From Sulfolobus sp. A20 (lineage in GTDB: Archaea > Thermoproteota > Thermoprotei_A > Sulfolobales > Sulfolobaceae), in the NCBI RefSeq assembly GCF_001719125.1, contig NZ_CP017006.1, positions 1,302,001 to 1,366,000 of the forward strand: a DNA stretch of 64,000 bases, written 5' to 3'. The notes below the pieces were generated by a model that saw nothing but the letters and a program-made list of their open reading frames with translations, had not been told where the DNA came from and searched no databases. A program made the position numbers and the translations under genes. The number at the start of each line of letters is the position of its first letter. The first letter of the stretch is position 1. This document shows positions 56,591 to 57,691 of this stretch, in pieces.

Positions 56591-57691
56591 ATGAGGGCTA
56601 TCATTGTCAGACCGCCTAAGGCTGGAGTAGAAATAAAAGATGTGAAAGAAGGGGAAGTCGATAATTATGGCAAGGTTAAAATAAGGACGTTATATAATGG
56701 AATATGCGGAACTGACAGAGAAATAGTGAATGGTAGACTTTCGCATGCTATATTACCTGAAAATAGAGATTATTTGGTTTTAGGTCATGAGGCTATTGGT
56801 GTTGTTGAGGAGTCTTGTTGTGGTTTTTCTCAAGGTGAGTTGGTTATGCCTGTTAATAGGAGGGGTTGTGGTGTTTGCAGGAATTGTTTAGCGGGTAGAC
56901 CAGATTTCTGCGAAACTGGACGAGCTACAGACTTGGGAACTAAAGGTAAGGATGGTTTTATGCGTGAGTTTTGGTTTGATGATGTTAGGTATCTTGTTAG
57001 GGTTCCTAGGGCTTTGGAGGATGTTGGTATTTTGGCTCAGCCTTTGGCTGATGTTGTGAAGAGTGTTGAGGAGATGTTGAGTGTTCAGAGGAGGGTTCCT
57101 TTGTGGAGTTGTGATGATGGTACTTTGAATTGTAGGAGGGCTTTGGTTGTTGGTACTGGTCCTATTGGTATTTTGTTTAGTTTAGCCTTGAGGACTGTCG
57201 GTTTAGAAGTATGGATGAGCAATATAAGGGAACCATTAATAATAGAGCAAACGTTAATGGAAGAAGCTAAGATCAATTACTACAACTCCTATAAGGGTTA
57301 TGATGAACTGTTAAAAACACAAGGTAAGTTTGACGTTATAATTGACGCTACTGGAGCTGATGCGTCCTTGCTTGATTCTCTTTTACCGTTGCTGAATAGG
57401 AACGGTATTTTAGGCTTATTTGGCTACCCAATTTCCGGCACTTTTTCACTAAATAATAAAGATATTCAAGACATAGTTCATGCTAATAAATTGATAATAG
57501 GCATGGTAAATGGTCAAAAGCCTCACTTTGAACAAGCATTGGTTTATTTGGCTTCGTGGAAGACGTTGTACCCAAAATCATCAAAATTGTTAATTACTAA
57601 GACAATAAGTATTAACGACGAGAAAGAGGTTTTAAAGGCTTTAAGGGAAAAAGCCGATGGAGAAATAAAAGTAAGAATATCTTGGCTATAG
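56591..57691 (+). CDS. gdh: glucose 1-dehydrogenase, zinc-dependent (medium-chain family)
   Basis: NAD(P)-dependent glucose/galactose/pentose dehydrogenase of 366 residues, the entry enzyme of the branched Entner-Doudoroff route in Sulfolobus. Catalytic zinc ligands are Cys39, His66 and Glu67 ([16 protein letters not shown]); structural zinc Cys are 93, 96, 99 and 107 ([16 protein letters not shown]). [20 protein letters not shown] near 175-195 binds the cofactor, and [13 protein letters not shown] near 303-315 is typical of Sulfolobus GDH. A TTG one codon earlier is possible; ATG 56591 matches known starts. Codon use is mosaic: about 56783-56887 and 56947-57183 are unusually rich in codons such as GTT, GGT, TTG and AGG, unlike the A-ending codons of the flanks. 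In a species with two GDH genes this would be the second isoenzyme. Confidence 0.93.

Follow-up and report, generated by a model that had tools for sequence, protein, structure and literature searches.

Keto-biased, strand-polar codon tracts in near-identical blocks of paralogous genes of Sulfolobus sp. A20

The glucose dehydrogenase gene and its second copy

Sulfolobus sp. A20 is a Costa Rica isolate with a published genome (PMC5127849), which comprises 2,688,317 bp in one contig. The window, that is, the whole stretch of 64,000 nucleotides analysed here, contains a gene for a zinc-dependent glucose 1-dehydrogenase (GDH) of 366 aa, with the Pfam domains Glu_dehyd_C and ADH_N and with 2cd9/2cdb as its best PDB relatives. 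Two tracts within the gene have unusual codons.

56591..57691, + strand: glucose 1-dehydrogenase gene, zinc-dependent, 366 aa
56771..56890, + strand: tract 1, 37 of 40 codons G/T-ending
56945..57181, + strand: tract 2, unbroken run of 79 G/T-ending codons, of which 77 (56951-57181) are common to the paralogue

The original prediction had described tracts of T- and G-ending codons in this gene, and they are real. None of the 42 other window ORFs of at least 100 aa has a G/T-ending run longer than 12 codons. Across their 60-codon windows, G/T makes up a mean of 51% of third bases (sd 7%, max 75%), as against up to 100% in GDH. In a synonymous-codon null drawn from window usage (20,000 draws), no run exceeded 24 codons, versus the 79 observed; for tract 2, the same number of draws gave at most 54 G/T-ending codons of 78 versus 78 observed. 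The tracts use nearly one codon per amino acid (GGT, GTT, GCT, CCT, ACT, ATT, TTG, AGG, GAG, AAG and CAG), the exceptions to G/T ending in tract 1 being TTA at 56780, CAA at 56831 and TGC at 56876. The island between the tracts and both flanks have ordinary codon usage, as had been noticed. The reported shift of the protein toward Arg and Val is likewise present, the commonest replacements relative to GDH-1 orthologues being K>R (4) and I>V (4), and the tracts have left intact C39, H66, E67, C93, C96, C99 and C107, which are the zinc and catalytic residues of Sulfolobus GDH.

Comparison with relatives, proposed at the outset as a check, separates A20 from all of them: the third bases of the same stretches are 39-68% G/T in six congeners and two dozen other Sulfolobaceae, and the tract codons are absent from every GDH orthologue examined in related genomes. 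The codon mosaic is therefore private to the A20 genome.

A search of the genome with the window GDH gave one further locus, of 86% identity, on the opposite strand and 60 kb away. By its flanking genes, which show synteny with congeners, this second copy is the GDH-1 orthologue. When the two copies were aligned by codon, the tract blocks showed 98-100% nucleotide identity and the sequence in between 65-80%.

Genome 1297561-1298655, - strand: second GDH copy (GDH-1 orthologue); the genome search matched it at 1297566-1298668
56621..56733, + strand: block identical to the paralogue, with ordinary codons (codon alignment)
56734..56773, + strand: diverged island, protein ~33% identical to the paralogue
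56774..56919, + strand: converted block 1, differing from the paralogue at one position; tract 1 is carried by its first part
56920..56950, + strand: diverged island, protein ~33% identical to the paralogue
56951..57223, + strand: converted block 2, one mismatch (57199)
57224..57325, + strand: diverged flank with ordinary codons

Both codon tracts sit in near-identical blocks and are the same in either copy; shorter blocks exist as well. Outside the blocks, amino acid identity to GDH-1 is 0.66-0.98 for the second copy and 0.26-0.68 for the window copy. Inside them, the two copies are identical and group with GDH-1 of congener G005, and the trees of block and non-block segments conflict. As the second copy tracks GDH-1 outside the blocks and the copies are identical inside, the window GDH is an old divergent paralogue which has been overwritten blockwise by the GDH-1 copy. 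Gene conversion in at least two tracts, as the original prediction had it, thus stands, with block and non-block segments disagreeing in the phylogeny that it had called for and with the partner gene now identified. Its proposed donor, a genome of other codon preference, does not: the donor is the cell's own GDH-1 paralogue. Nor can the odd codons be a habit of that donor, as the paralogue has them solely in the tracts shared with the window GDH, the GDH-1 genes of six congeners lack them, and other A20 blocks flip internally to A/C-ending codons.

The block at 56621-56733 is identical between the copies and has ordinary codons; conversion and codon bias are therefore separable. This is as expected of a recent conversion in which the bias has yet to develop, and the codon bias seems to build up over time after conversion.

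Assembly error is an unlikely source of the pattern, as both GDH copies have distinct flanks in a complete genome and the signature occurs in other species. Near GDH, a gene for a 713-aa solute-binding protein (59667-61808) contains the longest A/C-ending run of the window (18 codons), with 44% G/T third bases overall; it has a weak likeness to the GDH-2 neighbour gene of congeners.

The signature in other A20 paralogues

We denote G/T as K (keto) and A/C as M (amino). The whole A20 genome was searched for K-runs, defined as 26-30 consecutive codons with G/T third bases, and the matches besides low-complexity ones were largely paralogue pairs. Apart from GDH, at least seven further A20 pairs carry the same signature: GlcV-type ABC ATPases, enolase-family genes, class-III aminotransferases, M1 aminopeptidases, AMP-forming ligases, a pair of unknown function and sugar-binding proteins. 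Since the pairs were found through a pattern search for K-runs, bins of low identity within these same genes serve as the appropriate control. In 20-codon bins with at least 97% identity between the pair, the mean deviation from 52% G/T third bases is 0.36, against 0.12 in bins with less than 80% identity (p=2e-19). Extreme codons are confined to the near-identical blocks, and the diverged flanks are ordinary.

Genome 1367840-1368902 and 1540617-1541679: GlcV-type ABC ATPase pair, 99.8% identical
Genome 633065-634673: radical SAM gene with two G/T-to-A/C sawteeth, 90-100 to 5 and 100 to 35

The GlcV-type ATPase pair is 95% G/T-ending over all 354 codons. The enolase-family genes encode proteins that are ~62% identical in all congeners, and in A20 alone they share ~140 codons of 100% identical DNA, in which the left-hand codons end in G/T and the right-hand ones in A/C; twelve orthologues from both clades are flat. 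The changes in this block are A to T/G on its left side and T to C/A and G to A on its right. Abrupt-edged blocks of near-identity and conflicting block trees, the marks of interparalogue gene conversion, are found in both GDH and the enolase family, and within the enolase-family blocks the paralogues are more alike than the orthologues. In other genomes, homologues of the radical SAM gene show no such gradient, and two copies of it occur in one MAG; no paralogue was found in the present A20 genome, and the partner may have been lost or be present in other strains.

Polarity is a further property of the blocks. The share of G/T third bases drops from 5' to 3', on either strand, and sometimes reaches pure A/C: from left to right it runs 100, 85, 75, 50, 20, 10 and 0% in the enolase-family pair, and 90, 55, 10 and 95, 95, 75, 70, 0% in the aminotransferase blocks. 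Thirteen block slopes comprise 12 negative, one zero (at the ceiling) and no positive values. Because an order of G/T on the left and A/C on the right reads alike on both strands, polarity can be measured in a strand-invariant and codon-free way, as the G/T content of the left half of a block minus that of its right half. This difference favours the left half in every one of the 16 A20 blocks and, with three species pooled, in 24 of 27 (p=5e-5); its A20 mean is 0.12, compared with 0.000 (sd 0.05) in random segments of the window. The three blocks of reverse sign are in G005, and at least one of them holds two successive sawteeth. GDH and the GlcV-type ATPases are G/T throughout, without an A/C half.

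The substitution spectrum follows the same direction. Every fourfold third base in the GDH tracts is T, also where orthologues have A, C or G, and comparison with orthologues at these sites gives 77 A-to-T cases and none to G. Over the A20 pairs, the 262 fourfold sites of K bins comprise T 249, G 7, C 5 and A 1, and those of M bins A 123, G 5, C 4 and T 1; the background has A 236, T 212, C 59 and G 55. At NNY codons, K bins have T 158 and C 0 and M bins C 37 and T 4; at NNR codons, K bins have G 88 and A 7 and M bins A 36 and G 5. T is thus preferred on the K strand, followed by G where T is barred, with T over G at fourfold sites ~9-fold above background. Over all codon positions, the GDH tracts differ from GDH-1 by 42 M>K and 8 K>M changes, against 41 and 40 in the other parts of the paralogue (p=1.5e-4). 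Converted blocks thus have a directional excess of substitutions over unconverted parts of the same genes, as is general for biased conversion, and some amino acids have been dragged along by the bias (Lys to Arg, Ile to Val).

The sugar-binding protein genes adjoining the GlcV pair are also duplicated and lean to A/C-ending codons. Multicopy IS transposase genes of congeners G005 and G001 show the same G/T-rich codons, several of them declining from 5' to 3'.

Biased conversion and related systems

The best reading of the tracts, with a probability of roughly 0.7, is strand-polar, keto-biased gene conversion, in which they are the footprint of repeated conversion between the GDH paralogues with a strand-specific bias in which variant survives. 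Conversion, the T/G direction, the restriction to near-identical blocks and the polarity are shown by the data.

Several known systems share part of this signature. GC-biased gene conversion, known in eukaryotes and proposed for bacteria (PMC4450053), likewise rests on directional survival of alleles in heteroduplex repair and, like the A20 bias, acts in recombining copies both at silent sites and at some replacement ones. It is strand-symmetric, however, whereas the A20 bias is strand-polar (G/T left, A/C right), and GC3 falls in A20, where 249 of 262 fourfold sites in K bins are T. Concerted evolution of prokaryotic paralogues also leaves old pairs as mosaics, with near-identical blocks alternating with diverged ones, but the converted blocks of A20 have in addition drifted to an extreme, strand-specific composition. 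Repeat-induced point mutation and strand-coordinated hypermutation similarly act on duplicated DNA and in a strand-coordinated way; unlike these, the A20 changes include transversions, reverse across the block and spare reading frames and active sites. The nearest published report is a 2026 preprint on M. tuberculosis paralogues, which finds T>C enriched and suggests that NucS is less active during recombination (PMC13061034). The A20 signature was not found described in the literature on Sulfolobus biased conversion, NucS in gene conversion, EndoMS and heteroduplex, or concerted evolution and codon use, a search with subscription journals mostly outside it and hence weak evidence.

Biased gene conversion is known mainly in its GC form; the preference seen here, for T/G over A/C and with strand polarity, has a different direction. 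It is strong enough to fix nearly all silent sites over 80-340 codons and to replace amino acids. The blocks preserve the polarity of archaeal recombination in sequence form, and they may show which strand is handed over in break repair. Codon usage, dN/dS, the detection of foreign genes and the trees of paralogues and IS elements are open to misreading in these archaea.

Candidate agents and rival explanations

The restriction of the bias to near-identical parts of paralogues points to the handling of heteroduplex, and Sulfolobus is without MutS/MutL (PMC7736090). EndoMS/NucS, a non-canonical mismatch repair enzyme whose gene is present in A20, is the likeliest cause. The S. islandicus enzyme, given Mg2+, acts on G/T, G/G and T/T but leaves A/A, C/C, A/C, T/C and A/G uncut; with Mn2+ it cuts C/T and A/G too (PMC7736090). 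Those cut with Mg2+ are all the keto-keto mismatches and no others, a specificity that matches the direction of the A20 bias. The enzyme is known for replication fidelity; a compositional footprint of it in conversion tracts was not found reported.

We infer both the annealing route and the agent in the following scheme. A break in one paralogue would be repaired through synthesis-dependent strand annealing, with the donor-copied strand, on top to the right of the break and on the bottom to its left, annealing to the tail of the recipient. EndoMS/NucS would cut this heteroduplex at G/T, G/G and T/T and ignore A/C, A/A and C/C, so that a donated A or C opposite to a former recipient G or T would be tolerated and the reverse replacement rejected. 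Each round would then favour T/G over A/C on the top strand at the left side of the block, and A/C on top, which is T/G on the bottom strand, at the right side. Over many rounds, the donated strand would move to A/C and the opposite strand to G/T, with a change of sign at the break, and silent sites would be driven to saturation. If only A/C-for-G/T replacements survive on the donated strand, the top strand is left with G/T on the left and A/C on the right, which is the order observed. The excess of T over G needs an extra preference, for example that C/T is cut more than A/G. Other cases that sit poorly with the scheme are the radical SAM gene with its sawteeth but no partner in A20, the three blocks of reverse sign, and the GDH and GlcV-type pairs with their missing A/C half. 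In Haloferax, deletion of nucS severely impairs gene conversion, and gene conversion there is independent of Rad50 (PMC11276520), which leaves break repair uncertain as the route. NucS as the agent, taken as a claim by itself, has in our estimate slightly less than an even chance. The broader proposition, that EndoMS/NucS drives strand-polar, keto-biased conversion in MutS/MutL-less archaea, with paralogues recording the donated strand and proteins pushed by repair, is a little more tentative still; if it is true, protein changes in paralogues may be driven by repair bias and not by selection. An involvement of NucS in recombination, distinct from its replication function, becomes directly testable in a genetically tractable Sulfolobus.

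The main rival is polarised conversion driven by the recombinase, which we consider unlikely, although it deserves more weight than the remaining alternatives. Sulfolobus solfataricus RadA has a GT preference, for which our literature search located no report. RadA would pair GT-rich single strands best, so that G/T-rich 3' tails would be kept, and A/C-rich ones would undergo further resection and be rebuilt from the donor. These tails correspond to the top-left and bottom-right strands, which are those observed to be G/T-rich, and the geometry therefore fits equally well. The base order (T > G, C > A) also resembles what recombinase filaments prefer: TGG repeats for RecA and GT-rich DNA for yeast Rad51 (PMC3763553 and its references). 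However, a modest in vitro preference would have to yield near-saturation, and K-runs are scarce in Sulfolobaceae without NucS even though RadA is universal. To our knowledge, saturated G/T codon tracts have not been reported for paralogues of bacteria or yeast.

Directional, kataegis-like mutation in single-stranded tails exposed by break resection, by deamination of C to T and A to G and oxidation of G to T, predicts the same strand switch at the break and strand-coordinated changes. We regard it as improbable, as it needs A-to-G far above G-to-A and would strike single-copy genes, and the other window ORFs have no such tract. It must also explain A-to-T changes at fourfold sites, which C-to-U cannot give and where A-to-I gives G; these transversions rule out deamination or R-loop hypermutation as the sole cause. 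Recombinational import from a genome that prefers other codons would explain the sharp tract edges and the block structure, and selection on codons at the translational or mRNA level in duplicated genes would explain why the tracts have almost one codon per amino acid. The opposite codon sets within one block exclude codon selection, and import as the general cause, so that we give either of them hardly any credence. Against import, moreover, the paralogue carries the same tracts, the tract 1 protein is 86-97% identical to those of congeners, and no tract-bearing donor was found in the GDH loci of related genomes or in plasmid and phage collections, which hold no similar DNA. Codon selection is further contradicted by the ordinary codons of the diverged parts of the same genes and by orthologues without the bias.

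The distribution of NucS in Sulfolobaceae bears on the choice between EndoMS/NucS and RadA and constitutes a natural contrast for studies of mismatch repair. EndoMS/NucS (PF01939) was detected in five genera of the family but in none of six others. Among 31 Sulfolobaceae genomes, the median number of K-runs is 23 in the 16 with NucS and 4 in the 15 without it (p=5e-6), although the genera of either kind probably represent few clades, which makes the comparison non-independent, and the genomes also differ in repeat load. Phylum-wide counts of K-runs were dropped as a test of NucS, being dominated by the codon usage of distant groups. The orfB genes of IS200/605 were uninformative as such a test: their copies show no bias, even in genomes with NucS, and are probably identical from recent transposition.

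One exception is G026, a Sulfolobaceae genome with no detectable NucS, where a stretch of csa3- and cas6-like CRISPR genes (L218:2992-4532) is nearly all A/C-ending, with 0-20% G/T third bases; the RadA alternative would account for it. A large gene beside this stretch, on the other strand, is 60-90% G/T-ending.
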